This document shows positions 1 to 22,700 of a stretch of DNA of 64,000 nucleotides, piece after piece. Every line of letters starts with the position of its first letter. The first letter of the stretch is position 1. The notes under the pieces were generated by a model, which did not search any database, was not told the DNA's origin, and saw nothing but the letters and a program-made list of their open reading frames with translations. The position numbers were made by a program, and so were the translations under genes. Source of the stretch: a virus; the IMG/VR virus record IMGVR_UViG_3300023179_000044, positions 39,879-103,878 of that record. One strand, given 5' to 3'.

Positions 1-659
1 ATTTGCCAAAGAAGCGGGAGTGGAAGTTCTCTAATAGAAACTGCATCTTTTTTAAATTTTCTTCCGTCTCCAGATTCTATATCTTCTGGAATTAAAAGAG
101 GAATAGAAAACTTTGCACCGTCAGTTTGAATAGATGCAGTAAGCCCTAAAATTCTTTCTTTTGCTGCATTTGCTGTAGCAATAAGATATGATTTTTCAAT
201 AATTTCATTGGTTATTGCATCATTTACAGAAAAGAATTTTTTAAAACTATTTCCTCTACTACCTGAATTAAAACGACTTCCAGTGTAAACACCAGTCATT
301 TCTTTATGACGAAGTTGACAATATCCCTTAGCACGGGGGCCAAGATACTTTGAGAGGTGACGAACACAGCGGGTCCAATCTCCAGGAACTCCCCACATAA
401 TTTTTGCTCCACCTACACCTCTAGTCCAGTAGTGCCTTAAATCTTCTGCATTTCCCCTATTTCTATCTAGACCCCCACCAGCAGTAAGAGCTTCATACTC
501 TTTATCTCCACATTTTGCTAGCTCCTCTAGAGCATACTCAATCTCCATCTGAGGCTGCCAGTTAGATTCATATAATGGATCTTCTTCTTGCATAATTTCT
601 TCATAGGACATAAGAAGATCTTCATTAGTGATATCAGTTGGATTTCCTATTTCCATCAT
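1..659 (-). CDS. Capsid maturation protease, N-terminal 219 residues (runs off the left edge)
   Basis: Start is ATG at 659 (a second in-frame ATG follows at 656); the frame stays open to base 1. Residues 59-126 are an actinophage head-protein module (AGGGLDRNRGN, WGVPGDWTRCVRHL, YLGPRAKGYCQLRHKE), nearly the same as the C-terminus of the next gene upstream. Residues 198-219 begin a second domain with RKFKKDA followed by ELPLPLLWQ, a pattern I recall from capsid maturation (prohead) proteases of actinophages. Its place downstream of terminase and portal fits. The catalytic residues would lie outside the window, so the protease call rests on the entry motif and on gene order. Confidence 0.62.
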   Translation of the reverse strand, partial: MMEIGNPTDITNEDLLMSYEEIMQEEDPLYESNWQPQMEIEYALEELAKCGDKEYEALTAGGGLDRNRGNAEDLRHYWTRGVGGAKIMWGVPGDWTRCVRHLSKYLGPRAKGYCQLRHKEMTGVYTGSRFNSGSRGNSFKKFFSVNDAITNEIIEKSYLIATANAAKERILGLTASIQTDGAKFSIPLLIPEDIESGDGRKFKKDAVSIRELPLPLLWQ

Positions 660-666
660 GTATTCG

Positions 667-2598
667 TTATCTGCCACGGTTACGATCTCTCTTTGCATGA
701 GTTGCGGTATAAAAACCTAGGGCTTCTTTGTGCCTAAGTTGACAATATCCTTTTGCTCTAGGTCCAAGATATTTAGCTAAATGTCTAACACATCTCTTCC
801 AGTCCCCAGGGAGTCCCCATTTAATCTTTAATGCACCTTCTCCGCGAGTCCAGTATCTGCGTAGCTTTTCTGCATTACCTCGATTTCTATCTAGTCCACC
901 ACCGGCAACCATAGTCGAGTAGTGGTCACCCCAGAAATTAATTAGATGCTGATATGTAGATGACATCGCTGCTTGAGGAGCACCCATTGGTGCTTGTGTC
1001 GGAGCTGGCATAGGGGCTGGCATAGGTCCAGCTGGTGCCGCTGGAGCCGGATTCTGCTCTTTTGGCGGCTGAGTAGACTCATCTACTTGCTTAAGGATAT
1101 CTTTAACAAGTTCTGGAGTATCTAGTTTAACTACAGGTGGAGGAGTAGCTGATTGCAAGTCTCTTAGAATTTGCTCATCTAAAACCCATTTTTGATCTTT
1201 ACGCTTGTATGTGAGAGGTTGATTAGTAGTTGCTGTTTTTGGAACAATTGCAACTACATCCATTACGGCCTGCGGATCATCTGGTGAAACAATAGCAATA
1301 TATTTTGGCTCTACATCACTAGTTTTAGGTGTCATATCTTCAGCCGAAGCACCATCTGAAGTTAGAGCAACTTTTCCTCTAAATTTAGTAACTGCATTTG
1401 ACCAATCAGTAAGCATCTGATCTAATTCATATTTAGTCATTGGACTAGGACCACTTGATAGTAAAGCTACAGGACCATCTTTTTCAACAACCGGCTGAGC
1501 TAAAATTCCTTTTGTATTGATAGGAGTAATTGGAGCAACAATTTTGTAAGATTTTTCTTCTGTAGAGTCATCTATTTTTTCAAATCCAGAAGCCTGAATG
1601 ATTCTATCAATCATGCCCATGTCGAGATCTTCTATCGAGTCAGAAAACATCTGAGATTCGTCTGGATTAATATCATCAATTTGAATCATTTTAAAGGGAG
1701 ATTCTTGCATGAGAGCTGAAATAATAATTGCAGAGTCAGAATCAACTAAAACATGTGTTTTTTCAGTTTTATCATATGGATCATCTAGTCCTGAATCGTA
1801 AGTATAAATATCACCATCAATATAACCAAGATCATCCCAAGAGCAGTCGTCCCATACATAAACGTGACCATCGATTTCTATTTTGTAAAGACGATCAATC
1901 CCAGAGCCATCTAATCTAACTCTTACTAAAAACTCAGGGCCATATGACGAATCTAAATTATGAGCTTCTTTAAAAGCATTTATATCTGACTCATAGTCAT
2001 CTTCATAGTAGCTGTCAAGATGATCTTCATATTCTGGATCCGTATATCCAGTTGAAGTCATTGCTCGTTTTTCACGCTCTACAATTGCAGAAGCCCAACG
2101 CCAAGCAGCGTCACCGCCCCACAGTGCCCAGGCGATTCGTCCATTACTAGGGAAGTTATCTTCACCCAAATCCCATCCTTTACCCTTTTTGTCGACTTCA
2201 TGACGAGGGAAATATTTAGCGATATGGCGGACCTTTGCTAGACCGATTTGACCACCTTTAGCAAGTGTACGAGCAGTATTAAGCCCAACTGGAGTTCCGC
2301 CTCGGTGGTGCTCTTTGTGCCACTTAAGGGCTTTAATTGCTTCGGATTTAACACCATCAGGAATAGTGTACATTCTGCTAGTAGATGCAACTACTGGATT
2401 TAGAGTGCTATCTAGTGTTACAGATGCAAGCTCATAGGCGGTTTCCGGAGTCTCTGAATTAAAAGTCCAACCACTTTTTTGAATATTAGAAAGTGCACCC
2501 ATCTCAGTGACGATGTTAAGTTCAGTGTCAATAATTACACTGTAGTCGCCAATAGCAAAAAGCGATAACTTTCCTATACTTCCTAAATATTCAAGCAT
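667..2598 (-). CDS. Head-associated protein with two actinophage modules
   Basis: 643 residues. Residues 79-180 hold one module (GLNTARTLAKGGQIGLAKVRHIA, then IAWALWGGDAAWRWASAIVER) that recurs in actinophage structural proteins. The middle is acidic and rich in D, E and Y. About residues 510-555 are a Pro/Ala linker, and residues 563-632 are the GGGLDRNRGN...RAKGYCQLRHKEALG module shared with the adjacent protease. The arrangement suggests a minor head or scaffold-like protein that carries the same tag as the protease. Function is not established. Start ATG follows AGAGAGTAAAA and sits just after the stop of the preceding gene. Confidence 0.6.
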   Translation of the reverse strand: MLEYLGSIGKLSLFAIGDYSVIIDTELNIVTEMGALSNIQKSGWTFNSETPETAYELASVTLDSTLNPVVASTSRMYTIPDGVKSEAIKALKWHKEHHRGGTPVGLNTARTLAKGGQIGLAKVRHIAKYFPRHEVDKKGKGWDLGEDNFPSNGRIAWALWGGDAAWRWASAIVEREKRAMTSTGYTDPEYEDHLDSYYEDDYESDINAFKEAHNLDSSYGPEFLVRVRLDGSGIDRLYKIEIDGHVYVWDDCSWDDLGYIDGDIYTYDSGLDDPYDKTEKTHVLVDSDSAIIISALMQESPFKMIQIDDINPDESQMFSDSIEDLDMGMIDRIIQASGFEKIDDSTEEKSYKIVAPITPINTKGILAQPVVEKDGPVALLSSGPSPMTKYELDQMLTDWSNAVTKFRGKVALTSDGASAEDMTPKTSDVEPKYIAIVSPDDPQAVMDVVAIVPKTATTNQPLTYKRKDQKWVLDEQILRDLQSATPPPVVKLDTPELVKDILKQVDESTQPPKEQNPAPAAPAGPMPAPMPAPTQAPMGAPQAAMSSTYQHLINFWGDHYSTMVAGGGLDRNRGNAEKLRRYWTRGEGALKIKWGLPGDWKRCVRHLAKYLGPRAKGYCQLRHKEALGFYTATHAKRDRNRGR

Positions 2599-2600
2599 TT

Positions 2601-3002: not shown

Positions 3003-3020
3003 AATATACTCTATTCTATT

Positions 3021-3383
3021 CTAATACAGTATTGTACCAGTGTCATTGGTAGGACCAAGTCCCATTGAACGCATTGTCGGAGCATTTCCTTCTATTTTAA
3101 CTTCCCCTGGCTCATCATAAAGACCATATGCAGCAGCGACTACAGCATATGGGTCCTCTAAAGATGCAGATAAGAATGGTCCAGTTGGAGTTACGGCCCA
3201 GTCTGGTCCATTCGCCATTGAATAAATATAGTTTTCTATATCTTTAGAAATAGCATCGGCATCTTCGGTGTGAGTTATAAAGTAGCCATCTGGAACCCAG
3301 ACTAGTTTTTCTCCAAGAACATATATATTAAATGGTTCATTGTACTTTTTTCTCCACGGCTGAGCGGCATAAAATTCTTCCAT
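3021..3383 (-). CDS. Hypothetical protein, 120 aa
   Basis: Not recognised. An N-terminal WRKKYNEPFNIYVLGEKLVWVPDGYF stretch is followed by an acidic helix and a Gly/Pro-rich end. It starts 8 bases after the stop of the 2593-codon gene (TAGGATATACT before the ATG) and belongs to the head-gene run. No catalytic motif is visible. Confidence 0.6.
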   Translation of the reverse strand: MEEFYAAQPWRKKYNEPFNIYVLGEKLVWVPDGYFITHTEDADAISKDIENYIYSMANGPDWAVTPTGPFLSASLEDPYAVVAAAYGLYDEPGEVKIEGNAPTMRSMGLGPTNDTGTILY

Positions 3384-3391
3384 AGTATATC

Positions 3392-6300
3392 CTACAATCC
3401 TGTAATTTTGCTTAGATAACTTCTAAGACTATTTAATTCTTTTTCAGTATACTTTGAAGCTTCTTCACCTTCAAGTTCATTTTGCAAGAAGTTGATTAAC
3501 TGGCTATATTCAGATCTACTAAGAGTTCCATCACTACCAGAGAATTTATCAATTATAGAAGAAATAACTCCTTCATTATCTGATCCTATAGATCCTTTTT
3601 GCATGGCTTTCTGCGCAGATCCGGATGGCTTAGGAGTAGTAACTGAACTATTAGCTTTAGCCACTGCACCAGATCTATCTGCTAGTGCAAATAATGTACC
3701 GAAAGCAAGATTTCTTACATCGTTATCTACTCCATCAGACTTAGCTCTACCAAATACTTGAACTATATTATCTACAGGATTGCCTTTAGAATCAGTATAA
3801 GTATCAGTATTTGGATCGTAATTTACATCAATTACTTTCTTTTTACCATCTTTATCTTTGATTTTTGCCTTTAGGCCTTTTCCTCTAGAAGCAATCCCAG
3901 GTAGAGATAAAGCATCTTCAAAAGCCATAGTCATAACTTCGCTATGAGATGATTCTGGAGTAATTCCTCTTTCATAGACCTTAGACATATATGGACTAGC
4001 AAGACCCTTAATCGCTAATGCTTTTTCTTTGTCGCTATACCCTGGACCAAGAAGCTCAGCTAGTCTCAAGACATTTGGAAGCATTTCTTCAGGTGTTCCT
4101 GCATTTTGCACGCCTTTATCATAAATAAATGCATGCTGCAGTTGAGGCATATTAGGAATTAATTCTGCAATAACGTGAGTATTCTCGTGAATTGCAGTAG
4201 CAGTAGTTCCGCCATCACCTTTCTGAGACATCCCTGGTCTATTAGATAAGTGAATATGGAATCCCTTTATATCTTCACTAACAAAAGCCCTAGGTACGCC
4301 AGACATAATGAAAATGCTTTTATTTTCATTTCTAGCCCTACTAATTAATCCACGAATCATAGATGATGGAAGTAGGCTTATTGCTTCTTCAAAACCAACC
4401 TTTGATAAGAATGTATCTTCAGGTCTTACGGGTAGATTTTTCTCTTCACTAAATAGCAAACCATTAAATTCACTCAATGACACGTTATCAAGTTCGATGC
4501 CTTCGTCATTCATGGTATCTATGTAGCCTTGTCTTTGGGCAGCACCTATAGTTTGAATAGCACGTCTTTCAGAAACCTGAGCATCTTTATGATTTTTTGC
4601 AGCAAGCTTAAATTTACTTTGAAGTGTTTTATATGCAGCAGTTGCTGCTCTATCATTCATAACATCATAAGCATGGAAATGAATTGCATTAGAGCCAAGA
4701 ACGCCAGTTTTGACAGAAGTAGCAAGATATGGAAGTCCAGCTGCATCTAAACGCTTCTTTAGTTCATCTCTATCAACTTCTGGACCATTAGGACCATTTT
4801 TAATTAATCCTTCGGCATTCATTTTATCAAAAATAGCTTTTTGATTAGCATTAGATATCGTTGCTAGATTAGACGGAACTGACTTAAATTTAGACATTCC
4901 TTTAGCTCTTTCAAGATCTAATGCATTTTTTGCAGAAACTTTTTCATTTTCTTTTTCAACTCTATTTGACTCTAAATCATTAAAGAAAGTATCCAAATCT
5001 GGAGCATTAGAAGTTGATATGCCCTGGGACTGAAGATTTTCTAAAGTTCTTTGATCAATCTTTTTTCTAAGTTCATCACCAATAGCCAATACTTCATCTT
5101 TAGCTTTTCTAGCCTCTTCGGTAGGTTTAACCGCTGTATCAGAACTATCCTTAATTGGAGTCCTTTGAGTAGTATCAATAGATAATGTTTTAGCAGTTTT
5201 TCCATCGCTACCCATTCCAATTCCAATATCAGCTGCTCTCTTTCCAAGTGTAGTTAGAGCAGATGGTTCTGGAGCCTTGAGAGGAGAAGAAGAAATTATT
5301 TCATCAGTATCATTAAAGGTTTTAGAATCACCATTGTCAAAAGTAAACTTAGTTACAGCCGACCCAGTCTTTTTATTTGTTCCAGACTTCTTAGATATAA
5401 CTCTACCAAAACGACCCCCATTTGGATCGTACAGGGTATCTCCTACAGAAATATCAGATGCTTTGGTTGAAGTACCTTTTTGCGGGCTACCAATTATTTG
5501 ATCTTCATACTTATTATAATCAATATAAGAAAAATCAATTGCATCAGTATTAAACTTCATGATAGGAACAATGTCACCATTATCATCATAAGCTTTTTTA
5601 TCAAAAATCAAACCTTTATCAAAATCAACAACATCTCCATTTTTAAGAGCACGCTCAACGTCAAGTTGATCATTTCTTACAGTTTTTCTTCCCTTTTCTA
5701 GAGGTGTATTATCAGGAACTCTTATGAGTTTTTCAGTTGTAATAACTCTAGGTTGCTCATCTGGGTCATCAGAGAACCTAACACTTACATAGTTAGAGTA
5801 AGCAAAGTTTCCTGCAGCATCATGTTCAACTCTAAGTTTATGATCAATTACACCTACGGCATCGCCATTAGGATCGATATTATTTGGCCATCTCACTTTC
5901 ATTCCAACCTGAGCAATTTCTCCACTCTTAAGCCTGTGAGGAGCTAATGCGATTCCAGCATCATCAAGAACTTTATTTTCTATAAAGTCAACAATTTCTT
6001 TAAACTGATCAGTAAACTCGCGCTCATCAAGATATGCAAATTTTTGTCTTAGAGTTTCAAGGATGACTCTTTTAGCTACATCTCTTGCTTCCTGAGTATC
6101 AGGAAGATCAGCAACATATGATACTAAAGCATTAACTGCAGCTAATTTATCTCCTTTATCAAGAGCATCCCAGAATGATGGAATACCTTTTCTCATTTGG
6201 TTATAGAGCTGGCTCGTATCTTTTGCTTTTGATTTATTTAATCTTTGCTCTCTACCCCCAAGAATTAGCAATGCTTCTTCGGTAGGAGTTCTTAAAGAAA

Positions 6301-9300
6301 GGCTTGTATCATCTGAAGACGGGTCTCTTAGGATATTTTCAAAACTTCCTGTCCGCTGAGCCTTAAATCCTCCACGAATTCCTCCGTAGTATCTTTCATT
6401 ACGCATCTGATCCTTAGGTGTTTTTCCTTTAGGATTTGCTTTCCAGTCACGAAGGAAGTATTTTTCTAATAGAGCCTGAGGGCCACTAACACCTAGCAAA
6501 CTTGTAAGACTCTTATGAGGAGCATAGTGATAGAAAGTTTCTGACATACCAGTGTTTAAATCAGTATAAGTTGCTACAACTCTAAAGTTATCATCCTGAT
6601 TCTTTACAATACGAAGTTCAAAAAATGTTTTTTTACCAGCAAAATCTTTAGATGTTTTAGGCTCAGTAAAACTTAGTTCCCTGGCCCAAACTATGCTGCC
6701 ATCTTGTTTAATAGTTGCATTAGGATTAATTGCTAACAATGCAGCAATAATATCTTCTCCTTTAGCAGTAGACACGCTAGCAAGGGCAGTTTTAGGAATA
6801 CCGGATACATCAATTCCTTCTACACGCTTTTTAGGATCGTCTTGTCTAGCTGGGTTATCAACCCAGAACCTAGACGGACCTCCAGGATGAGGAGTTGGAG
6901 TTATTACAGTAGAAGCATTCTTTGGCTTAGCGAATCTAGAAGAATTCTTAGATTGAATACTTCTTCCATTATTAAGTTTTTCTAATGCTGCAATTAAAGA
7001 AGAAACTCCACCCTTATTAGACTGAACATCAGCTATAAAGTTAGGATCTTTAAATAGTTCTTCAATTACAGTATCGCCATCTGCACCTGAATCAATTAAT
7101 TTAGCAATTTTTCCAGTAGGGTCATATTTAGATAGCTTAGACTTTGAAAGTTCTCTGTTATTTCTAACCCCGGCACTACGCTGTTGTCCAAAATTCTTAG
7201 CTAATTCGTCAATACTGTCATATTTTTTAGATGGAACTGAAGAATCACTTCTATTACGAAGAAGTGCACTACCGTCTTTATTAACAGTTACTTCCCAGCG
7301 CACGCCATCAATTAACTTACTGTATTGCTGTCTACCTTTAGACCCAATTTGTTGCCAACCATCAAGGAAGTTTTTAGGCGGGGTAGTTGGACCAGAAACT
7401 CTTCCCTGAGAGATAAATGTTTCTTGATCATTTTGTTCAATAAATGGCTTTCCATTTCTTCCGGTAGATCCAAGAGACGAAGAAAGTTTTTCTGGTTTAG
7501 ATCCTCCATCTTCTTCATTTCCAGGACCTCGAACTTCTTCGGCCATTTTATCTCTATAATCCCAGCCATCCATTCCGTAGTCCGCCGGGCGGTTATATTT
7601 AGTATTAAACTTCTCGAGGCCATCTCGTCCAGAGTAATTCATTGCCCACTCAAGGCTACCTAAAAATAAACCTTTTTTAGCTCTAGTTGTAGAAACATAA
7701 TGAATTCTTGTTTCTTCTTCATCTAATGCTCTTTTAGCTATTTTTTTATCTTCAGAATTTGGATCAGCAAAATCATTACCGAGACTAACGTAATCCCACT
7801 CTAGACCTTTACCCCTATGCGCAGTACTAAGAGTTACATCAGCAATTACATCATTTGCTTCTAGTCTATTTGGAATGTAAGCAGCTATTGCATCTAATTC
7901 AGACTGACGATCATCATCATCACGAGTTGAAAACTCCCAGTGTTGTTCTGTACCATTATATTTCCAGCCTCGATTTTTTAGGTAGTCTTTAAGCGGAGAC
8001 CCATTTACATACTCTTTATATGTAGCTTCACCACTTAATGTTAGAACTCCAAAATCATCAACTTCATAATTTAATCCTCTACCAGCTTTAGATATCCATA
8101 CGGTTCCAGATGACCCAATTGAAGCATCCAAATTAGAATCTACAGCACCTCCAGTATCAGACTTATCTACTAATAGATCCTCTATAACTTCACCAAGACG
8201 ATCGTATCTTGTTTTACCTGTATTATCTGCATATGTAGAAAATGTATACCAACGGCCAACTACAGATTTAGGATCTCTTTCTGCTCTTTTTTGAAACTCT
8301 TTTAAGGTTGTAATTCCTCTAAAATCAGAATCTTTTATGGGCTCTCCATTAGGCATTTGAGGGGTTTTAGTTCTATCTTTAAAATCTGCCCTAAGCCACT
8401 GTATATAGTAGTAATTATTAGTTAATTCTTTATAAAGCTGGCTTAAAGCCGCAACTTTTCTATTATCATCAATAAAACCAACAATAGCTTCGGCAGCAGC
8501 TAAATTAGTCCTAGTTAAGTGAGCTCTCTGTGGTCCAAATGGTAGTTCATCAATATCCCCTACAATTCCAGGGAAGTTAGAATCATCAACATTAGGATTT
8601 CCTACAAGACGCTTATTGTCTCCAAGTATATTTAGAAAAGCATTACCTGGTCCAGTTAAAGAATCAGGCATTCTATAGCTTGTAGTTAAGTTTACAACTG
8701 CACCAGCCGAGTTCTTTGCATCATTTAATGCGTTAACTGCACCTCTCCAGGTAAAGATATTTTGATTTGTATCTCCAACGTGAGCGAGCTGAATATTTCC
8801 TTTATTATTTTTTAGAATATCAACAACAGTCTCGTTTGTGTCCTGAGCTTCATCAATAATTACAAGTTTTGCTGGTAGTCTCTTCGTTCCAACTTTAATT
8901 TTAGATAAATCCGGATTACTAAGTTGCCAAAGTTTTAGCACATGGTCCTGGCTAATAGCTATTCTTCTATTACCAACAAATTTTTTCTTGTCTTTATCCC
9001 AGTAGCCAAGTTTAGGATTATCTTGACTAATGTCATCCCAGTATTTATTTGCCCAGCCAAGCCATTTATCAAAATCAATCTTGTACTTTTGACCGTCTCC
9101 TTCCATAAAATCTTCTGTAGGCATGTCAAAAGCATCAGAAAATGCTTTAATTACGTTATCTTTTGATATCTCTCTACCAGGAGAATTACAGAAATTAGAA
9201 ATGATTTTATCTACAAGAAAAGCTGCATCTTCACTATCAATATTTCTTCCAGGACCAGGAGTATCATCAGTACCTAAATGAAGAGCCAGATATTCTGGAG

Positions 9301-11173
9301 TATAGACAAGTTTAGAAAACTTTGGTGCTCTATTAATTTTTGTTGCAGCTTTTTGCTGAATAGTTAAAGATTTTCTAGCTAATTTGTGAGTTGTCATCGC
9401 ATCTGAGTTATCACGTGGAAGCCTAGCTTTTGCATCAGCAGCATTTTTATTACCAAAAGTAAGTACTAATACACCATCATCTGGGCGTAGCCGACCCATG
9501 GCCCTAGCAATAGCTACCGATGTGGCAGTCTTTCCACAACCAGCTAATGCATCCATAACAGTATCTTGCTTAGCTAAAACAATCGCAGCAATTGCTCTTT
9601 TTTGTTCAGAGCTTGGTACAAATCCTCCCGTATCTTGAGTAAAGTCCTGACCTGCCGCCAAAGCATCAAGTTCTTCGTTGCTCATCTTAGCTACTTCTTC
9701 AATAGCCTGTTTAACTTCTTCTACAGTAGGTGGAGTTTCACCAGTAAGTTCTGGATCCTTCATTGGATCGCTTGTTGTTTCACTTGGAGGAATATTTAAA
9801 TTCAAATCTCCGTCTTTTGCTGGAGGAGTGAATCCACCATCCCCCTCTGAAGTTTCTGGAGTCTGGATAGACGGAGTTTCTTCTTCTCCATCTTTAAAAT
9901 CAACATCATCATCAGGAATATCTTCATATGAAGGACCGTAAGATCTTCCGCCTTTTCTACCCTTTGCTTTTTCAACAACTTCATCTACAGTTGGCGCGTT
10001 GCCATCCATCGCATCATCAATTGCTTCTTTAATGATGTCATCAGATGCTGGCTGAGATTCTTTATCTAATTTTGATGGTTCGTATTTTTCTGCCTCTGTA
10101 GTGTCAATAATTTCAGGTTCAGTAGTATCTGGAAGCGTGCCCGGCTCTTCATCGGTCAGTAGATTTTCAAAATATTCTTTATTTGGAATATCTTCTGTTG
10201 GAGACTCGGATCCATCTTTAAGTCCATCCATTACTTTAGAATTTAATAGTCTTCTAGCAGCTCTAAGTCTTTCAATTCTTTGTGTATCAGGATTTTCTTC
10301 AGCTTTTAAAGACTCAATTTTATCTTTAAGAGCTTCATCTAATTTAAATATAGGAAACTTTGACTCAAGTTCTGATCTTAGTCGAGCAGCTTCCCCTTTT
10401 TTATTTTTTTCACCAGAAATTTTTCTATAGTTTGAATGTTCCTTACCAAAGTACTTCCAAGCATTACGATTAAAACTCTTTCGACCTGCCTCCCTAACAA
10501 CATCCTCCACGCTCTGCTGTGGCTTCATTAGTGGTTCTTCTGGCTCTACTTGCTTAGATGGAACAACTTCTTCCGATGGCATGCTTTCGACTATGCGAGC
10601 AAGCTCTTCTTTTGACATCTTTCCTTCAGCACCAGGCTCAAGCTGAGCAAGAGGAGAGTTAGCTTTTTGCTCTTCAATTATTTGCTTTTCTTCATCTGTA
10701 GGAGTAGCATCAGCAAGTTCTAAGTCCTGAGGAGTAATTTCATCAATTAAAGTATTCTCATAGTCAAGAAAATCGTCCTGTGACCACTCTCTAGAAATAA
10801 TAGGATTTCCCCTACTATCGAGTTTTTGACCTGGAGTAATGCCTTGACGCTTAAGAGCTTCTTCAGGAATAATACCTTCAATGGTTTCCATGGCATTTGT
10901 AGGAACGTGATAAACACCATCTCTAAAGCCTTTATCAGAAAAACCTTGAACTAAAATTCTAGCAAAACCCTTAATTTTATTAGAAGCTCCGATATACTTA
11001 CCTCTAATAGGGATTGGTGGCAAACCATGCTTCAGCCTAGCTAGCATTAATTGTAGATGGCCCATTTCGGCCCACTGGCCGTGGCGATCACGAAGCTGGA
11101 CCATCCAGAAACCCTTGTTAGCTCCTAAGCCAACTGCAATAATTACTTCTGGGTCTTTATTTTCTAATGACAT
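3392..11173 (-). CDS. Giant polyvalent protein: UvrD/Rep-type helicase plus HExxH metallopeptidase
   Basis: 2593 residues. Residues 17-102 are an N-terminal module shared with the 3612-aa protein (GANKGFW, QLRDRHGQWAEMG, DGVYHVP, GIIPEE). Residues 110-510 are a charged, low-complexity linker. A complete superfamily 1A helicase follows: Q motif near 519-531, Walker A GCGKT 545-549, DEAQD 774-778, GDTNQNIFTWRG about 800-811, SYRMP 832-836, TAHRGKGLEW about 1117-1126 and YVSTTRAKKG about 1159-1168. The middle (1200-2050) includes small beta-rich segments. A zincin site HENTH (2329-2333) has a downstream Glu (SSHSEVM, about 2412). Known helicases of this family unwind DNA using ATP. Fusion to a peptidase and to a head-type N-terminus suggests a protein carried in the virion and ejected into the host (inference). 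Start ATG follows AGAAGGAC. Confidence 0.8.
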   Translation of the reverse strand: MSLENKDPEVIIAVGLGANKGFWMVQLRDRHGQWAEMGHLQLMLARLKHGLPPIPIRGKYIGASNKIKGFARILVQGFSDKGFRDGVYHVPTNAMETIEGIIPEEALKRQGITPGQKLDSRGNPIISREWSQDDFLDYENTLIDEITPQDLELADATPTDEEKQIIEEQKANSPLAQLEPGAEGKMSKEELARIVESMPSEEVVPSKQVEPEEPLMKPQQSVEDVVREAGRKSFNRNAWKYFGKEHSNYRKISGEKNKKGEAARLRSELESKFPIFKLDEALKDKIESLKAEENPDTQRIERLRAARRLLNSKVMDGLKDGSESPTEDIPNKEYFENLLTDEEPGTLPDTTEPEIIDTTEAEKYEPSKLDKESQPASDDIIKEAIDDAMDGNAPTVDEVVEKAKGRKGGRSYGPSYEDIPDDDVDFKDGEEETPSIQTPETSEGDGGFTPPAKDGDLNLNIPPSETTSDPMKDPELTGETPPTVEEVKQAIEEVAKMSNEELDALAAGQDFTQDTGGFVPSSEQKRAIAAIVLAKQDTVMDALAGCGKTATSVAIARAMGRLRPDDGVLVLTFGNKNAADAKARLPRDNSDAMTTHKLARKSLTIQQKAATKINRAPKFSKLVYTPEYLALHLGTDDTPGPGRNIDSEDAAFLVDKIISNFCNSPGREISKDNVIKAFSDAFDMPTEDFMEGDGQKYKIDFDKWLGWANKYWDDISQDNPKLGYWDKDKKKFVGNRRIAISQDHVLKLWQLSNPDLSKIKVGTKRLPAKLVIIDEAQDTNETVVDILKNNKGNIQLAHVGDTNQNIFTWRGAVNALNDAKNSAGAVVNLTTSYRMPDSLTGPGNAFLNILGDNKRLVGNPNVDDSNFPGIVGDIDELPFGPQRAHLTRTNLAAAEAIVGFIDDNRKVAALSQLYKELTNNYYYIQWLRADFKDRTKTPQMPNGEPIKDSDFRGITTLKEFQKRAERDPKSVVGRWYTFSTYADNTGKTRYDRLGEVIEDLLVDKSDTGGAVDSNLDASIGSSGTVWISKAGRGLNYEVDDFGVLTLSGEATYKEYVNGSPLKDYLKNRGWKYNGTEQHWEFSTRDDDDRQSELDAIAAYIPNRLEANDVIADVTLSTAHRGKGLEWDYVSLGNDFADPNSEDKKIAKRALDEEETRIHYVSTTRAKKGLFLGSLEWAMNYSGRDGLEKFNTKYNRPADYGMDGWDYRDKMAEEVRGPGNEEDGGSKPEKLSSSLGSTGRNGKPFIEQNDQETFISQGRVSGPTTPPKNFLDGWQQIGSKGRQQYSKLIDGVRWEVTVNKDGSALLRNRSDSSVPSKKYDSIDELAKNFGQQRSAGVRNNRELSKSKLSKYDPTGKIAKLIDSGADGDTVIEELFKDPNFIADVQSNKGGVSSLIAALEKLNNGRSIQSKNSSRFAKPKNASTVITPTPHPGGPSRFWVDNPARQDDPKKRVEGIDVSGIPKTALASVSTAKGEDIIAALLAINPNATIKQDGSIVWARELSFTEPKTSKDFAGKKTFFELRIVKNQDDNFRVVATYTDLNTGMSETFYHYAPHKSLTSLLGVSGPQALLEKYFLRDWKANPKGKTPKDQMRNERYYGGIRGGFKAQRTGSFENILRDPSSDDTSLSLRTPTEEALLILGGREQRLNKSKAKDTSQLYNQMRKGIPSFWDALDKGDKLAAVNALVSYVADLPDTQEARDVAKRVILETLRQKFAYLDEREFTDQFKEIVDFIENKVLDDAGIALAPHRLKSGEIAQVGMKVRWPNNIDPNGDAVGVIDHKLRVEHDAAGNFAYSNYVSVRFSDDPDEQPRVITTEKLIRVPDNTPLEKGRKTVRNDQLDVERALKNGDVVDFDKGLIFDKKAYDDNGDIVPIMKFNTDAIDFSYIDYNKYEDQIIGSPQKGTSTKASDISVGDTLYDPNGGRFGRVISKKSGTNKKTGSAVTKFTFDNGDSKTFNDTDEIISSSPLKAPEPSALTTLGKRAADIGIGMGSDGKTAKTLSIDTTQRTPIKDSSDTAVKPTEEARKAKDEVLAIGDELRKKIDQRTLENLQSQGISTSNAPDLDTFFNDLESNRVEKENEKVSAKNALDLERAKGMSKFKSVPSNLATISNANQKAIFDKMNAEGLIKNGPNGPEVDRDELKKRLDAAGLPYLATSVKTGVLGSNAIHFHAYDVMNDRAATAAYKTLQSKFKLAAKNHKDAQVSERRAIQTIGAAQRQGYIDTMNDEGIELDNVSLSEFNGLLFSEEKNLPVRPEDTFLSKVGFEEAISLLPSSMIRGLISRARNENKSIFIMSGVPRAFVSEDIKGFHIHLSNRPGMSQKGDGGTTATAIHENTHVIAELIPNMPQLQHAFIYDKGVQNAGTPEEMLPNVLRLAELLGPGYSDKEKALAIKGLASPYMSKVYERGITPESSHSEVMTMAFEDALSLPGIASRGKGLKAKIKDKDGKKKVIDVNYDPNTDTYTDSKGNPVDNIVQVFGRAKSDGVDNDVRNLAFGTLFALADRSGAVAKANSSVTTPKPSGSAQKAMQKGSIGSDNEGVISSIIDKFSGSDGTLSRSEYSQLINFLQNELEGEEASKYTEKELNSLRSYLSKITGL

Positions 11174-11269
11174 CTAGATTTGGGTCCTTCTTCTAGGAGC
11201 AAAATAATTGTTTTCTAGTATGATTTCTACTAGTAATTTTACCGTTATTTAGCTGGTATGATTTGGGAA

Positions 11270-12085
11270 TTATAGATTATCTAAATCTTTTATGGAATTT
11301 AAAGTACTTAGAAAAGTATTCCAATTTGCAATCTGAGCATACCTAGGGCTATCAACAAAATCTCTAGTTAAAAAATCATTAGAATCTTCTACCCAGTCAG
11401 GATGATCATTCAGTTCTTGTAGCACTTCGTTAGCACTAGCACCGCCATCAATCATTCGAGATAGCTGGCCAGATACATCATATTTAGCTAGTTTTTCTTT
11501 AGCTATTTCTTTAAAATCTACGGCCACTTCAGGGTCCTCCAATTTATTAAGAGAATCTATAAATTCATTTAGTTTAAATGCTGAAAGCCTATCTTCCATA
11601 TCTGAGTCATCGCTCAATCCCCGAGATGCTTCAGAAAGACCATTATAAGCAGAAAGAGAATTTAAATATTCCATAATGCTATCTTTTGTATAGCCCTGAT
11701 TAATTCTATATTCTAGCTCTCCACTAGGATCTAGAAGATTACTTTCACCACTATTTAGACTAAATAAGTCAAGTTTAGACAAAAGATCAAGTCTAGACTT
11801 GTTATACGCATCCATAGCTACGTTTTTAAAGTTTTCTTCATTTCCAGTAGTTGCAGCATTATACATATCATCTGAAATAACACCAGCGGAAACTAACGCA
11901 GACAGACGAGTTTTTGTATGAGCATACTCAACGCTAGATGGATCGTAACGAAAAACTCTATAAATTAAATTAGATTCTCTAGGATCTAGTGACTCAAGTT
12001 CTGCTAATAGTTTTTCAGTGGCGGCTTTTCCATAAATATACTTAGATTTATTAAAAAACTCATCTTTAAATTCATTATCTGACAT
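11270..12085 (-). CDS. Helical head-region protein sharing a short module with the helicase giant
   Basis: 271 residues, mostly charged helices. Near the C-terminus LAKYDVSGQLSRMIDGGA followed by ELNDHPDW matches LSKYDPTGKIAKLIDSGA followed by ELFKDPNF at residues 1347-1379 of the 2593-aa protein, so the two share a small domain. An ATG with a strong AAGGAGA site overlaps the previous stop (TAATG), implying coupled translation. Function unknown. Confidence 0.65.
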   Translation of the reverse strand: MSDNEFKDEFFNKSKYIYGKAATEKLLAELESLDPRESNLIYRVFRYDPSSVEYAHTKTRLSALVSAGVISDDMYNAATTGNEENFKNVAMDAYNKSRLDLLSKLDLFSLNSGESNLLDPSGELEYRINQGYTKDSIMEYLNSLSAYNGLSEASRGLSDDSDMEDRLSAFKLNEFIDSLNKLEDPEVAVDFKEIAKEKLAKYDVSGQLSRMIDGGASANEVLQELNDHPDWVEDSNDFLTRDFVDSPRYAQIANWNTFLSTLNSIKDLDNL

Positions 12086-13332: not shown

Positions 13333-13339
13333 TTTCTTA

Positions 13340-13546
13340 TTATACCTTATCGTCAGATTTTGGAATATAAACAGCTTCCCAATAGCCACGAGCTAGAATA
13401 CTACCTAAAAACTGAGTATCAAATTCTTCGCCATCAGCATTTTTAATATGAGCAAGATATTCTCCATTTTTATCTTTGCCATCATAAATCACTAATGAAC
13501 CACTTTCTCTTTTATAGAGAACAGTTCCTTTTTTAACTTCTTCCAT
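13340..13546 (-). CDS. Small hypothetical protein, 68 aa
   Basis: The ATG at 13546 has AAAGGAAAATAAT directly upstream, better than the ATG six codons earlier, which would overlap the preceding gene. The sequence looks like a small beta-barrel (GTVLYKRESGSLVIYDG, DTQFLGSILARGYWEAV). It sits between head-region genes. Function unknown. Confidence 0.55.
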   Translation of the reverse strand: MEEVKKGTVLYKRESGSLVIYDGKDKNGEYLAHIKNADGEEFDTQFLGSILARGYWEAVYIPKSDDKV

Positions 13547-13557
13547 ATTATTTTCCT

Positions 13558-13770
13558 TTACCATCTATATCCGTCAGCTAAACTTTTATAGAAATTATCC
13601 TCTAATTCTATGTATTTATCTCCCGTGTAGTCTTCTACTTCAGAAGCAGCACCATTAAGAAGAACATTTTTATAAATAGGCATTTTAGTTTCAGTTATCC
13701 ACAAATCGGGTGTAACTTCTCCTAGTAGTAGACCGGACTCATGTTTTTTAGTCATTTTTATTTTAATCAA
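13558..13770 (-). CDS. Small hypothetical protein with a likely TTG start, 70 aa
   Basis: The frame has a TTG at 13770 and an ATG at 13755. The TTG lies six bases after a perfect AGGAGG inside the end of the 3612-codon gene and overlaps its TGA, so I favour TTG and coupled translation. The product is acidic with no recognised motif (LLLGEVTPDLWITETKMP). Confidence 0.55.
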   Translation of the reverse strand: MIKIKMTKKHESGLLLGEVTPDLWITETKMPIYKNVLLNGAASEVEDYTGDKYIELEDNFYKSLADGYRW

Positions 13771-16700
13771 AATAGCCCTCCTCCAAAGGATCTAGGTTTA
13801 GAATATGGTTTTTTACTAGAGAACTCCCATATTATACCCTTACTAGTCAACAAGTCAATCATTTCAACTGAAGGCATTTCATAAAATACAACTTTTTCAA
13901 TGTCATCTAGTGTCACACCGCCATGAATCTGGGCCTCAATTGAACCAAATTTAGCAAAATTTTCACTTTCAAAGAAGTTTTTCCCGGTAGCTTCTCTATA
14001 AATAGCAGCCATCTGAGTCAAATAACTCAATTTAAATTCTGGATCAGTCAATGGAGTAGTTTCATCAAAGTTATTCAAAGAGTCTCTATCAGAAATGGTG
14101 GTTCTTTTCTTTACTTCTGGCTTCAGCACTACCTGGGCAGGCTCGGATCCTCCATAAATTTTTAAAGCATCTTCTGGTGGTGGTAGTGTAGCTGAAGCAA
14201 GCGATCCATATACTGGACGCCCTTCCAGTGGAGAGTCTCCCTCATAGCCAAAAGCCATGCTTTCATATAAAACACGTAAAGCACGATACTCCTCATTAGA
14301 GACTCCAGCCATAGAGCGTTTAGTCTCGTGTACTGTCTTTATTCGTCCTTCTTCTAGAACTTTTTCTAGAGCACGAGATGGCATAATAACTGATACAGCA
14401 CCAGATTCAGAAAATTCTTTTAGATCTTTATTTGTAATTTCTACAGATTGTTCTGGATCAACCGTAACATCATAAACCTGACTATTTACTTCATCATCCG
14501 CATAGTCTGGAGTTGTTATGGCAAACTGATCTAGGTCTTCTTTACTTATTCTTGGACGTTGTCTAGTTAAACCTCGTTCTAAAAGTGCATAAGCTATAGT
14601 TGAACCATCAAAATTATTAGTTTTAGATGTCAATGCTTCCATTATGTCTCTGTAAAGTGGATTACTATGCGCTGCTATTAAAGCTTCAGTATATTTTTGA
14701 TCGTTATCCATTTTGTCTTTATAAAGATTTTTTATTCTTAACAATTCTTTTTCTTCATCTGTGTCGGGGCTATCTTTTTTAAATTGTATAGCTGACCTAA
14801 TATATTCGTAAGTTTCTCTACCTTCTGGAGTTCTGTCAGTGTCCCAGGGGAGAGACAAATCCCTACCAAGTTCAGTTGCAATTTCTTTATAAGCTTTGTC
14901 GCTAGCATTGTGTTTTGCATCATCAAGATTAGAAATAACCGAGCTTAGTTCTTGCCTAGCGTCGTCCGATAGTCGTGTTCCAGTTATATCTGTTCTATTT
15001 TTATTTTCTTGGTTCGGGTTTTTATTTTTATTTTTATATTCACTAGAAAACATGATAGGAATAGATATTCCAGCTTTATCTAACTCTTTTTGTATTCTTG
15101 CTTTTTCGGCTTCCATATCTGCTTTAGAACTATTTCTATCATCGAGAATAATAGTTTCTATTTCATCACTAGAAATTCCACCGTGAATCTGAGCTTCGGT
15201 GTAGCTGGGATGGTAAGCACCATTTCCGTAATCAAGGTTATTTTCAACTTGCGGTAAATAGCCAATAATACCTGCAGCATATAAAGAATCAGGATCAATT
15301 TTTTCTCCAAGTGGGATAGCTTGGAAAGCCCTATCAAACGAATCGTTCATCGTGGCTGTAGATCTATCTCTGACTGATTTTTTAAGAATAAGCTTTACAT
15401 CTCCGTAGCCAAAAGTTGGACTAGAGTCTATATCATTGAATCGATTACTAGTTCCAAATAGTCTTTTTGGAGCATCATCAGTTGGATAAACTAAATAGCC
15501 ATAAATAGGTCTATTTTTTGGATCTAAATCAATTGGAAGACCCATTAAAGCACGTTCGACCACCGTTCTTTTAGAATTGTCAAACAATCCATTAGAAAAT
15601 TGAGTCTCAAACTGAGTTTTAATTCTTTTATCTTCTAAAATTTTAGCAAAAGTTTTTTCATCTACCGCGACTACAATTTCGGCGTTATCTAATTTATCAG
15701 CAATTAAACTTAAATTACTGTCTATGAGATCAATACCCGAAACAATCTTAGGAAGATTATTTTCAGATACTTCATTTTTCATCTCTTTATACATCTCTAA
15801 AAGTAGCATGGTATTTTCATGCATTGCATAATTATTAAGTTGCTCTTTTATTGCATCAAATTCAATAGGAGAAAGTTTATCTTTATATATTTTATTAAAT
15901 TCTTTTATATCAAAATATATAAATCTATCTTTATTTCTTTTAATCCAATCTTGAGCAAAATCTATGGCTTCTTGTGAATGACCATATGAAGTACGGTCAA
16001 GATAATCAACAGTCAAAACAGTGGACATTACTTGACCCGTAATATCTTCAGATTTATTTGGTATAGGGTCCCCATCAGAGTCTGGCTCAGTCAATTTCTT
16101 TATAAACTTTTTATCTGGATCTATGTATTCTTTAATAGAATCCATTGCAGAATAGTTTTTAAGTAAAGATATAATTTCTTCTTGAGTAGATGGAATAGCT
16201 ACTTTTGGTTTTTGTTGTTCTTCAAGTTCATCAAGGCTTGGCCTTTCGCGAGTGACCTGAACTACTTCTACAGGAATAGAAATTCCATAATTTTTCATAA
16301 GATCTTCAATATTTTTAGCAACCTCTAGAAGAGCCTCTTTATCATTATCACTGTAAGCAGGTATAACAAATTTTTCAATATCATCTAAAGAAACACCACC
16401 ATGAATCTGAGCCTCAAGATAGTTTGATCCAAAATCTCCAAGAGTACTTGGCGGTATTTCTAACACTCCAGATTTTAAAACAGAGTCTCTGTCAACTTTA
16501 GTCAAATCTGATGCCACGAACTCGGCTGAAAGACTATCCTTAGCTGTAAATCTTGTTCTATTTTTTATTGATGATTTAAGTACTACCCTAACATTTCCGT
16601 ATTGATATAAATTAGGACTTTCTAGTCTATAGTCCGTTGAGAATGGATTTAGATTACGATACAATTCTGGAGTACTCTCTAGTCCTAGATATCCATAAAT

Positions 16701-19700
16701 AGGTCTAAGACTGTCATCAATGTCTATAGGAACACCGTTTACACTGAATTCTGAAATTGCTCTTTTAATTGGATCATAAAGGCCCCTACTTTTAGCAGTT
16801 TCAAATTGAGATTTTATTCTTCCATCTTTAAATAAATTTTCAATAAACTTTTCATCGATAGCAATAGTAACAGAAGCATTTTTTATAGCATTAGATAAAT
16901 CTTCAGCTGCATCCATCATTTTTCTTACAGATTTAGCATCTTCACTTTGTCCAGGAAAAGCTTTTTCATATTCAAGAAACATCTCATCAACGGCTTTTTT
17001 ATTTACATAATCTTGATAAGTTGTTATTGCATTATAAATAGCATCTTTTTTCCACATAAAGTCATTAGAGGTTCTTTCATCAATACTTTCAGCGGCAGCA
17101 AATAGTTTTTCTTTTAATTTTTTTCTATTTATATATAAAAATTTTTCTTTATTTTTTTCAAACCACTCTTTAGCAAAATCAAATACCGTCTGATCTGGCT
17201 CTTTATATCCTTCATTTACTTTTAATGCTTCATCTCTGTCTTTTAATCTTTTTAATATGCTATATGGGTCATAATAAAATGTTGGATCATCTGGATCACT
17301 AGCATCATCATATGCTTTTTTATCGGTAAAAATAATTGACTTATCCGACAGATATTTTTCTAGCTCGTCCTCTATGGAATAAGGAATGGCAGAAGCATTA
17401 ATTTCATTAGAAGTAAAGTCTTCTTTTTTAACTGGTTCTTTAGGACGTTTATATATTTTGTCATACTCTTCAATATCGGCATTAATTTTGTCTGATAATT
17501 CTTTTATAGTATTAGAATCAATTTTTTGATCTTCTCTATTAATGAGCTCATCTAAAAGATCCTCGGTAGGCTTGCTAAGTCTAGCATCCTTAAAATATTT
17601 GTATACATCATCACGTTCTTGTGGGCTAGCAAAGGTGACGTCAGTTACACCGTCCGACTTATACTGCTCTTCAGGCCACTCAGGTAAGAATTGCTTTTTT
17701 CCATACTTTACCCTGATTCTTAGGGTTCCGTCAGCATCTTCAAAAACTTCAGAAACTGTAAACTTGGCAGCTATAGGGAGAATAACTTCTTTTTCTCTGT
17801 CATAAACAGTTCCGTCTGGCTCGATAGGGGAGCCTGTAGCACCTTTTTCTGTTTTAATTTCAAAAATAACCGCTGAATTAGTATTTGAATCTTTATTATT
17901 TTGATCTAGAATTGCAAAGCCCTCGGCCACTTCAGGGTCTAGTGAGGTCGAAGTAAAAATATCACTAGATATAACTTCATCCCCTGGCTTTAGCTGCATC
18001 AACTGAGCACGTAATTCAGAGTCTCTTCGGGCTATAGTTCCTCTATAGAGTTTTGTTCCTTCTGGAATTTCTTCAGATTCAGTTAGCTTTTTTAAATTAG
18101 AAACTAATTTATTAACACTCTCGGAAGTATCGGAATCAAACTCTTCACCTTTTATAAAATCTTTTATTAATAAATACTGACCTTTTTGATAACCAGTGAT
18201 TGCTTCTTTTTCTTCATTTGTTCTATCTGGAGTTGGAAGTTGATCTATGCCACCCATATCAGGAGATTCGGGCTGGATCTGCCATATAGGATCGCCATCA
18301 GGAGGGCCAAAACCAGCTGGAATACGAGCAAATGATGTAAAGAATATAGGATTTAATACAGTATTTTCATCGTATCGACCACTCGACTCTGAGATTTTAA
18401 TTCTAATAGGAGTTGGTCGGCCACCGTTATCTCTTGCAGCAATAAGTTTTACTACGTCATCGCTATTATTTAAAGAATATTTTTCAGTATTTGGATTATA
18501 AAGTATTTCAATTGGCTCCCTAAATCCATTATCCTTAATATCTTTAGCGACTTCACTAGCTTTAGTTTTATTTTCCCCAGTGACAAGACCGAAATCAGCA
18601 TTATCTACTTTAGAAAGCACATCTCCTGGACGTACATATCCAACAGTGCCGAGGTTTCCTCCATTAAGAATTCCAAATGGAGCACGTTTTGTTCCTGGTT
18701 TTAAATCTATATTTAAGTTAGGATCTTCTTGCTTAGAGTACTCGGATGTTTTTTGTCTTACTGCATCTAAGTATGGCTCATTAAGTGTTACTTTTCTGTA
18801 TAAACCATATTTATGTAAAAGACTTTGTAAAGTCTCTAACCCCTCATCAGAGTTACCATATTCATTAATTAAATTAATAGCTTGAGTGTCATATATTTCA
18901 CCTCTAAGCGAAGCTTTTATATCACGAAGTTTTTGTCTACCCCAAATACTTAGATTTGATAATTTTTCTGAAGAATTTTCTTTTTTAACTGTTGTATTTG
19001 TATTTTTATATTTTAGTTTGATTGTTAAATTACTATTAGAATCCTTTTCTACACCGATAACTTCTAGCTGCGCTCCAATTGGTAAAACCACCTCTTTTTC
19101 TAAATCATACATATCCCCACTGGCTCCCACTACAGCACCAGTTGCACCATTTTCTGTTGTAATATCAAATACTATTCTTTTTGTTGGAGCAACTCTTTGA
19201 TCACCAAGAGCAGCGAAATCTATAGCAACACTTTTATCTCTTGTAGTAGAAGTAAATGTATTATCTGACGATACAATATCGCCAGGTTGTAGTTGGTTAA
19301 ATTGAGCGTACTTATCACTAGAAAATACGGCAAAAGTTCCTCTATAGAGTTTTGTTCCTTCTGGAAGCTCTTCTGAAGTAGTTACTTTTTTTAGATGCGG
19401 TATTGCTTTATCAAATTTTGCTTTTTGTTCTTCAGTAATAGTCCCATTAGTTGGATCTGCCATATATTTTGCTAAACGATAATATGAAGGACTTTGATAA
19501 AGTTCTATACTTTCATTTTCTTCATCAGTTCTAGGTGGTATTGGTAAATCAAATTCGTCATTAGCTGTTTCTGGAGTTTTCTCTTCTGATTCTGGATATT
19601 TATTTAAAATAAACTCGCGACGAGCTTTTAGTTTTTCTTTAAGTTCTTTATTATCAGCTGGGTCAGAAATAAACTTATCAACAAGTTCATCTATTTTTTC

Positions 19701-22700
19701 TGGAGTAATAGCGCGAAGCTTTTCGACACTTTTTCTTTCAGCCTCGGGACTCATATTAGAAAAAAGTTGACCAGTAGTATTTTTCTTGTCTTTAAAAGTC
19801 TCTAATTCTCCTACTTCATTACCAAAAGCCGATCCCTTACGCTCGCCTCTGGCACGATATAGAAGAGAACCTCCGGAGTCTATACGAACTGGATTTCCAT
19901 CTTTGTCATAACTTAAATTGTCGTATCCAGTACCAACAACGTCCCAGTTGCCTAGCCATGCATCTATTGCAAACCCGTCGAATGCCGGATCGTTGGGGTC
20001 CACCCCATTATTTATTCTTTCTGCTACTGAAGTTAAAGGAGTGGTTTTCCAATCAGTGTAAGTTACTTGTTTACTACGCATTAGGCCTTTTTTAACTTCT
20101 AATGCGTCGATTCCGGCTTCTTTATATAATGCAGAAGCGAGTGCTTCATTATCTCCACGGTTTTTATCTTGGATCTTTACATAGAAAATATTTCCAGTAT
20201 TTGGATCTTGATATTTTCCACCAGGATTAGAACCAAGAGGTCCAGAAATTTGTTTAAAGTTAGTAAAATCTAACTCGGGGGTTTCAGATTTTTTAAGCTC
20301 TTCACTTAACTCGGGTTTTAACTTATTTTCTGCAGATTCTATAATAGGTTCTATTTTTTCTACATTTTTAAGACGAGAGTCATTTGGATCGTGGCCACGG
20401 CTGACAAAGAAAGGTTTACCTATTAGCTCTTGCATAGAAGAGAGGACCTTAAGCGATCTGTCTACTTCATCTCCAGCTTCTGGATTATCAAAGTATTTTT
20501 CAGCTCCTCCTCCAATATAATGAAGTGATTCACCCTTTAAACGCCATTTTTGATTACCATTTTTATCTTTAAATGATTCAAATAATCTATAAAACCTATC
20601 AGAACGAGGTGTCTCCGAGCCCCAGTCGCGTTCCCATGCACCTTCACCATAAAGTTCGTCATATTTAGCTGGAAGAGCACCTTTTGTTAAACCATTTTCT
20701 TCATAAAAAGATGCCCAGTCGCGGCCATCACCAAAAGGACTGCTATCTAGTGCATAGTAATCGAACTGGCCTAGTGGTTTAAGATGTCTAAATGGGCTTC
20801 CTCCACCACTTCTATCAAACTTCTCATTTGGGCCAACCTTTAGATCCTTTAAATTAAACCACGGAGCATTTTCTGGGTTTGGAATCTCTAAATCACCAAG
20901 TCTAGTAACTCTACCTGGAATTGACGTAACTTCGGGGCTTATTACAGCACCAATTTCATCAGAAATACGGCTAAAACCAAGTAGACCAGTTATTTCATCG
21001 GGTCTAGCTTTAATTTCATAACGACCAGTATTTTTCCCTTTATCTCCTTTTCCACGTTCAACGTTATAATCAAAAGCCATATACCTATCAAGTGAAGCGT
21101 AACCAGCGGCGGCATCGGCTTCTGTATCTTTATGGTGAATATTATTTCTATAAAAAGAAATAAATCCTCCAGGCTTAACTCCTAAAAATTTTTCAGCATA
21201 AAGTTGATTAACTTTTTTGGCTAAAGGTGAAATATCTTTTGGATCGCTATACTTAGTCATTAAATCTGTGGCAATATGATTACTTAGATAATCCCAGAAA
21301 AGATTTTTATCGGTAAGTTCGCCATATACCGTTTTTAAAAGTTCAGGGTTTTCTTCTTTAATCTGATCGAAGAGACTCCTATACTGAGCACCAACAACTT
21401 CTTCAATATCTTTTGGACTTCTAATTAAAGGGAAGCGACCCTTTTTTCTAAGATTGTTTGCGGCAACAGAACGAATATTCTTAAGCGCGTCATCCCCAGA
21501 AACTTCATCAACCAGCTGGTCTGGAGAGACCGGCTTTATAAAATTAAGCCCTTCGCTTGCTAAGTGTAAACGTATACGTTCATTCTGTTCTTCAGCAATA
21601 GCTGCCATTTTTGGAGATAACTCGGTAACAAATGGTCCTAGTTCTGGTCTTTCGGATTTTTGTTTTACAAGTTTATCTGCAATATCAGCTGGAGATTCTT
21701 TTGTAACTTCTGGAGATGGTGGCGAAGTTTCTTTTGGTGGTTCTCCTTCTGGTGCTTTAGGCGGATTTCCTTTAATACCAACTTCACCTTCTACTTCACG
21801 CTTAGGAGCAGGCTTAGGATTAGCGGAAGTAGCGCCTAGAGTCTGTCTAGGAACACCAACATAGTCATTATATTCATTTGCAAGTTTAAGAACATCCTCA
21901 TGATCAAGATCAACAACGACAACATTTAAATCAATTGGCTTATCCCCCATCTCCTGCGCAGCCAAAGCACCAGCCCAACGGTGGTGACCATCGATGACAT
22001 ACCCGTCACGGCTTACATATAGAACTGCTTGATCAAACTTTGCTCTACCTTCTGGAGTTAGGAATGCCTGAGCAATACCTCCAACATTTCCCATATCCAT
22101 TTCTGACTGAACTGGTGTAAGTTGATCTGGTGTTTTTACATCTCTAGTGTGTTTGATATTAAGTTCATCAAGAATTTTTTCAAATTGTTTTTGATCAGCA
22201 TCAGTACCAAGCTGCGGCATTAATCCACGTTCAGCACCTAAATTGTTATTTGTATAGTTTTCTTTACCATACATCTTCATATTCGTAACATCTACACCAT
22301 TGGTTCGATATTTACGAGTTAGACTTTGCATTTCTTCACTACTTAAAGGACTTCCATTTTTAGATCTTAAAAATGAAAGTAATGAATTAGCTCTTTCCTC
22401 ATTTAAAAGCCCAGAACTTATAGCTCTGCGGAGTCTGTTGTATTGCCTCGGCTCTAATTTCTTTAGTTCATCATCTAGTTCTCTAGCTAGTTCAGCTGCT
22501 CCTCCTATAGCATTCTCATCTGCACCAATATACTTTCTATCTGCAGCTGCAATTTTTAGAGCTTCTACCCAAGTATCTTTGTCTACTTCAATAAATCCGC
22601 CATCATAAAGAACTTCATACGCTTCCTGAGGATCAGTTATATCTGTTCTTACCTCTGATGGGTCAATTTCGTTTAGATCCCAGAAACCGCCCTCGTGTCT

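Follow-up and report, generated by a model that had tools for sequence, protein, structure and literature searches.

Why would a phage carry a DNA helicase, fused to a peptidase, among the genes that build its head? The question is raised by one gene in the right-hand 64 kb (hereafter the window) of an uncultivated virus record that runs to 103,878 bases. The gene (P0001; 3392..11173, minus strand) is a single unbroken open reading frame, free of internal stops, that encodes 2593 amino acids. The first-pass annotation had described a helicase and a metallopeptidase joined in one gene, and that description holds, since both domains lie in one frame and the fusion recurs in independent contigs and in isolates. 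The same recurrence of the architecture, in independent contigs and in isolate genomes, rules out an assembly artefact or a lone assembly fusion. We consider it probable that the giant is a packaged and injected polyvalent protein, whose helicase would protect or process the entering DNA and whose peptidase would free the domains from one another or cut a host target.

Anatomy of the giant

The helicase is of the UvrD/Rep type and belongs to SF1A (aa ~486-1185; 7619..9718, minus strand). Pfam matches to UvrD-helicase (aa 523-814, E 4.4e-15) and UvrD_C (aa 1096-1171, E 1.1e-10) are both over the curated cut-offs, and PHROG 1967, a DNA helicase family, matches aa 488-1178 (1e-58). Motifs Q, I, Ia, II, III, IV, V, and VI are intact: I is AGCGKT (544-549), II is DEAQD (774-778), III is GDTNQ (800-804), IV is SYR (832), V spans 1116-1126, and VI is TTRAK (1162-1166). 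The span agrees with the 545-1168 first assigned to them, and the motifs are intact in all 11 helicase giants compared. Sequence matches in the PDB are to F-box DNA helicase 1, Rep, and UvrD, with which the domain has the full SF1A motif set in common; it differs from them in being embedded in a larger protein and in having, from motif IV to motif V, a long stretch without assigned relatives. UvrD occurs once in this genome, as a domain of the head-cluster giant, and nowhere else in it as a stand-alone helicase gene.

Toward the C terminus lies a zincin-like metallopeptidase domain (aa 2206-2507; 3653..4558, minus strand), delimited by alignment, an AlphaFold2 (AF2) model, and weak zincin fold matches. 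The sequence HENTH (aa 2329-2333; 4175..4189, minus strand) supplies predicted zinc ligands and the predicted catalytic Glu, and E2412 (3938..3940, minus strand) is the predicted third ligand. A chance HExxH can be ruled out for the motif noticed early on near residue 2330: a protein so composed would be expected to contain 0.02 of them, and 12 homologues, which share 18-43% identity with the query, all keep H2329, E2330, H2333, and E2412 unchanged. This invariance of HExxH and the downstream E2412 makes it very probable that the peptidase is real. The model (pLDDT 81.4, pTM 0.82) sets HExxH and E2412 on two helices (domain positions 118-133 and 208-217). Zincins make up seven of the eight best Foldseek matches in the PDB (lethal-factor type, PPEP-2, M61, and astacin), the best E being only 0.1; neither profile nor fold comparison with the PDB gave a significant match, and Pfam gave none. 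The best viral fold match is an uncharacterised phage protein (E 7e-8), and SprT-like viral matches are weak. We conclude that the domain is a divergent zincin-type metallopeptidase. A weak match to the zincin region (E 0.1) was also seen in a Bacillus phage head-morphogenesis/ART protein (MN703407/vB_BboS-125, L016:4273-6312) and was set aside.

Iterated local profiles place the helicase at aa ~497-1185 and the zincin at aa 2214-2499, and they divide the remainder of the protein. An N-terminal module (aa 18-112; 10838..11122, minus strand) is followed by a short conserved segment (aa 137-196; 10586..10765, minus strand) that stands next after the module in ~30 homologues, and then by an acidic, low-complexity, unconserved linker devoid of Pfam domains (aa 197-485; 9719..10585, minus strand). 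Beyond the helicase come a conserved segment (aa 1269-1379; 7037..7369, minus strand), a backbone domain (aa 1475-1841; 5651..6751, minus strand) found in ~55 homologues with the helicase present or absent, and, between backbone and zincin, a short profile segment (aa 1897-1977). A PDB profile search with the backbone domain gave no significant match, and comparison with Pfam gave scattered weak matches only (best SH3b_T, 3/31). A 43-residue motif of the giant (aa 1340-1382) recurs in the adjoining 271-aa protein (11270..12085, minus strand), a pairing repeated beside the giant of relative L129; this neighbour is a possible assembly partner.

A conserved slot between portal and protease

The gene's assignment to the head region is secure. 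Along the transcribed strand, TerL (27465-28847) and the portal protein (25067..26815, minus strand; PHROG 776, E 1.2e-105) are followed by a Dps/ferritin-like protein of 151 aa, named from its sequence (24609-25064, minus strand), a companion giant of 3612 aa (13767..24605, minus strand), a 434-aa protein, and the 271-aa protein. The helicase-peptidase giant comes next, then two small proteins and a 643-aa protein (667..2598, minus strand) homologous to the protease polyproteins of relatives (N-terminal part). On that side the order ends with the prohead protease (G000:37538-39826), mostly outside the window, whose frame runs on into window positions 1-666 as an open frame in register (1..666, minus strand), and with the major capsid gene, identified by position and by annotation in relatives, just past the window's left edge. 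From 12085 down to 667 the genes lie on one strand, tightly spaced or overlapping, and a promoter and terminator scan of window 1-14000 found fewer sites than in shuffled sequence, a result with no bearing on expression timing. The replication genes are grouped on their own, far to the left, with products named from sequence: a primase/helicase-like protein (863 aa), a DNA polymerase I-like protein (605 aa), an SNF2-like helicase (598 aa), and a Cas4/RecB-like protein (310 aa). Elsewhere in the window, a 454-aa protein (33812-35176, minus strand) gives a full-length match to DUF6421 (E 1.7e-208), which is unusual for a phage, and another gene (59365-60099, minus strand) encodes a collagen triple-helix repeat protein (E 6e-14).

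The companion giant, delineated by Pfam and PHROG matches and by profiles, begins with the same N-terminal module (aa 38-124) and has matches to ParB-like, Alt-like ART, and DUF3626 families; it is a rich polyvalent protein itself. In it we count two ParB-like regions, two ADP-ribosyltransferase-like regions, one kinase-like region, and three DUF3626-like repeats.

Similarity of the portal protein, by which relatives were placed, groups this virus with actinobacterial phages: DSL-LC01 is closest (71% identity), followed by the Microbacterium phages Pumpernickel, Cece, Zooman, and A3Wally and the Arthrobacter phages Racecar and Atuin (46-48%), and Gordonia phages are more distant. A scan of viral contigs with the whole P0001 protein found no relatives, its patterns being poorly conserved; a scan of IMG/VR with a prohead-protease alignment found 522, of which 80 were retained. 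Large unassigned genes fill the slot between portal and protease or major capsid gene in every relative opened. Directly after the portal in Racecar and Atuin come gp78 (2709 aa) and gp71 (3113 aa), respectively, both with the annotation "DNA helicase" and with UvrD domains over the Pfam cut-offs. They share the slot, the N-terminal module, and a homologous helicase (25-26% identity) with the giant described here; their other flanking domains differ. Racecar gp78 has a C-terminal HExxH as well, whereas Atuin gp71 has an ART domain and no exact HExxH.

More helicase giants occupy this slot among the IMG/VR relatives, with full-length reading frames of 2485-3770 aa (the one in L137 is 5'-truncated), so that the arrangement is known from at least 10 non-redundant viruses, this one and nine others that include the isolates Racecar and Atuin. 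The closest, in L129, has 46% identity to this giant across aa 369-2593. In the more distant L134, L135, Racecar, and Atuin, the N-terminal module and helicase are kept and the remainder is different: the L135 giant combines RNase_T, UvrD, ArdC-N, and MPTase-PolyVal (the last two each at E < 1e-15), and that of Atuin combines ART with UvrD. Some 25 relatives have versions of 886-1474 aa that consist of N-terminal module and backbone, lack the helicase, and mostly lack the zincin; the frame is thus conserved, and helicase and zincin act as cassettes that it may or may not carry. The slot also holds genes that encode ArdC without the N-terminal module. One, confirmed with Pfam, is a tandem (ArdC-N plus MPTase-PolyVal, twice) between giant and protease (L025:3917-6094, plus strand), and similar genes in L026, L037, L041, L053, and L073 were recognised by a paired HExxH pattern. 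Two further giants in the same slot (L136:6672-18098, minus strand; L088:2-6844, plus strand) match GNAT acetyltransferases and end in the same type of C-terminal zincin; no helicase match appears in the visible part of either.

Helicase and zincin tend to occur together. Of 10 non-redundant full-length helicase giants, this one counted, 9 have an HExxH on the C-terminal side of the helicase, and an HExxH is found in 5 of 41 module-bearing proteins that lack a helicase (Fisher p 6e-6, indicative only, given the relatedness of the sequences and the greater length of the helicase giants). The pairing has an exception in Atuin, which lacks an exact HExxH. The peptidase in this position is of at least three apparently different types: one of its own in this virus and L129-L133, an ArdC type in L135 (MPTase-PolyVal, 7e-28), and others in L134 and Racecar. 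Such a distribution suggests a functional helicase-zincin pairing that may have been gained more than once; common descent with replacement of the zincin would give the same pattern.

Known relatives in kind, and a candidate address

Although the first-pass annotation saw a helicase as out of place among head genes, a described class makes room for it. Polyvalent proteins are giant multidomain proteins of phages and plasmids, injected early, with zincins in ~36% of them (Iyer et al. 2017, PMC5512222), and the giant has their size, unrelated enzymatic domains in one chain, and portal and terminase neighbours. At least two biochemically unrelated domains in one polypeptide mark the class; here a UvrD helicase is joined to an HExxH...E zincin, and the gene lies between portal/TerL and protease/major capsid, as it does in the relatives. 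A zincin as hub domain, a helicase-type ATPase, and ArdC, ART, and ParB associates are further points of likeness. Pfam finds none of the hallmarks MPTase-PolyVal (PF18818), ArdC-N, or other LPD domains in P0001 itself, and what places it functionally with the polyvalent proteins is therefore its architecture, its context, and its relatives. Neither zincin nor backbone domain matches a Pfam model, which sets them apart from the described class, and the helicase differs in kind and setting: polyvalent helicases are mostly SF2 enzymes of the SWI2/SNF2 group, with UvrD in a few actinomycete giants in plasmid- or conjugation-like contexts (PMC5512222), whereas here UvrD lies in giants of the phage head cluster. 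The best-ranked plasmid helicase match, a giant, multidomain UvrD protein of Streptomyces sp. NBC_01298 (WP_327309649.1, a 26,460-bp gene), is plasmid-borne, and phage head genes are not seen beside it.

Phage P1 offers a precedent for a very large helicase-type protein in a head. DarB, a 251 kDa head protein found by virion proteomics, is targeted to the capsid by a signal within its N-terminal 30 aa, and the Dar proteins have no common targeting consensus by BLAST (PMC9024508); DarB is an adenine methyltransferase with an SF2 ATPase (PMC5512222). It resembles the class described here, which is known from genes, as a very large helicase-type head protein. DarB is delivered to the cell and has an N-terminal capsid-targeting signal, for which the giant's candidate counterpart is its N-terminal module. 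The differences are an SF1A UvrD helicase and zincin in place of methyltransferase and SF2 ATPase, and a recognisable module that recurs across the giants.

This module (~95 aa, delimited by alignments, HMM distribution, and AF2) combines a QxRDxxGRW motif, QLRDRHGQW at aa 26-34 of the giant, with a predicted small beta-barrel (AF2 pLDDT 83.6, pTM 0.66). Its consensus over 39-44 sequences is QxR[D]xxG[RQK][WFY], in which R is invariant and Q and G nearly so. Fold neighbours are SH3/Tudor-like, none significantly, and a PDB profile search gave no significant match. The module stands at the N terminus, or within ~220 aa of it, in 11 of 11 helicase giants; it is also present in the companion giant and in many other giants, and internally in 53 of 80 protease polyproteins. 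Its profile matched 18 of 2037 open reading frames, drawn from this genome and, for ten related phages, from regions of 24-42 kb, and all 18 lie between portal and major capsid; as proteins of this kind had served to train the profile, it is the lack of matches elsewhere that is informative. In this genome, a simple pattern search found the motif in both giants and the protease and in no other protein. Some large genes in the slot, those for ArdC among them, lack the module. The protease polyprotein has a second, related motif near its C terminus, QPRDAKGKYRKVLA, which is kept in relatives and might serve in scaffolding or docking.

By its distribution, the module is a candidate capsid-targeting or docking element. 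The proposed logic is that of the T4 internal proteins and Alt, in which an N-terminal signal leads to packaging in the head and injection with the DNA, with the difference that the T4 capsid-targeting sequence (CTS) is 10-20 residues long and is cleaved (PMC5694885), whereas the module spans ~95 aa; no homology of the module to T4 or P1 signals was shown. What appears to be new, then, as judged from sequence, is a UvrD helicase in a phage-head polyvalent protein with a divergent zincin, together with a shared candidate capsid-targeting module.

Cysteine content sets the embedded helicases apart from free ones. Helicase domains inside head giants hold 7 Cys in 6777 aa, about tenfold fewer than stand-alone helicases from ten phage relatives (58 in 5434 aa; Fisher 7e-14, Mann-Whitney 9e-5), the two sets differing in host range. 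Stand-alone helicases of two Streptomyces phages (0.6% Cys) and the phage's own early enzymes (0.7-1.5%) are richer in Cys, which argues against a simple host effect. Whole giants have 0-4 Cys per 1479-3809 aa, and the phage's tape-measure-like reading frame of 1233 aa has none. We infer that low Cys is the composition of proteins that live in virions and perhaps thread out of them.

Probable delivery with the virion, and its alternatives

Virion delivery, put forward in the first-pass annotation, has become the best-supported reading, given a slot conserved in at least 10 viruses, the N-terminal module, the indirect sign of Cys depletion, and companions of ArdC and ART type. The giant would be synthesised late, together with the head proteins, and drawn into the prohead via the module that the protease polyprotein and companion giant also have; it would then be packaged and, later, ejected with the DNA. 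In the new cell, the helicase may work at or close to the incoming phage DNA, or on host enzymes attached to it, by blocking or displacing a nuclease (AdnAB/RecBCD-type), restriction complexes, or RecA-type complexes, or it may ready ends for repair or recombination. The zincin might cut the giant into separate working parts or cleave a host protein; the former, also anticipated from the first reading, accords with the processing of polyvalent polypeptides proposed for zincins of this class (Iyer et al. 2017, PMC5512222). Two observations make a part in protecting DNA seem likelier than one at the replication fork: an early cluster already supplies the phage with a primase, a polymerase, and an SNF2 helicase, and the antirestriction factor ArdC turns up repeatedly as a companion in the slot.

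Much of the same evidence can be turned toward a protein that stays in the head. A module common to giant and protease polyprotein, a position among assembly genes, and a backbone domain retained where helicase and zincin are missing would all suit an assembly or packaging role, for instance as an inner-core scaffold, with the peptidase maturing head proteins and the helicase handling DNA during packaging. The phage already has a terminase and a prohead protease, however, and assembly functions should be constant, whereas helicase and zincin come and go; the ArdC, ART, ParB-like, and DUF3626 companions moreover point to host-directed effectors, and we regard a purely head-internal role as unlikely. 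That the helicase is a cytosolic replication or repair enzyme, which lies in the head cluster by chance and acts once translated, also draws on real observations, as PHROG 1967 helicases stand alone in many other phages, several of them beside replication or nucleotide genes. Within the slot, by contrast, the helicase never stands alone, the module is always present, and a zincin is fused in nearly all cases; with the low Cys of the embedded versions relative to the stand-alone ones, and with primase, polymerase, and SNF2 helicase encoded in a separate cluster, this makes a cytosolic enzyme decidedly improbable.

A further alternative concerns the peptidase, which could be a degenerate, non-catalytic zincin fold used for binding, with the helicase as the sole active part. 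It would fit the lack of a significant PDB match, and some polyvalent-type domains are inactive in some members, as in the case of the MuF PBECR domain (Iyer et al. 2017, PMC5512222). Residues of HExxH and E2412 that stay invariant in 12 sequences, down to 18% identity, are nevertheless hard to explain without a metal-dependent function, and loss of catalysis seems very unlikely indeed.

Returning to the packaged and injected polyvalent protein, a broader scheme can be sketched tentatively, and we give it somewhat less than even chances: a general cargo system in which the module is the capsid address, the giants that bear it are swappable (UvrD plus zincin, ART, ParB-like, ArdC), and the zincin releases the helicase after entry. 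If delivery with the virion is correct, virion-delivered anti-defence proteins would extend to a UvrD-type helicase, and there would be a concrete sequence module to examine as a possible capsid address in a large group of phages of actinobacteria. Because this module is visible by sequence, its sufficiency and necessity are directly testable in cultured Arthrobacter and Microbacterium phages.
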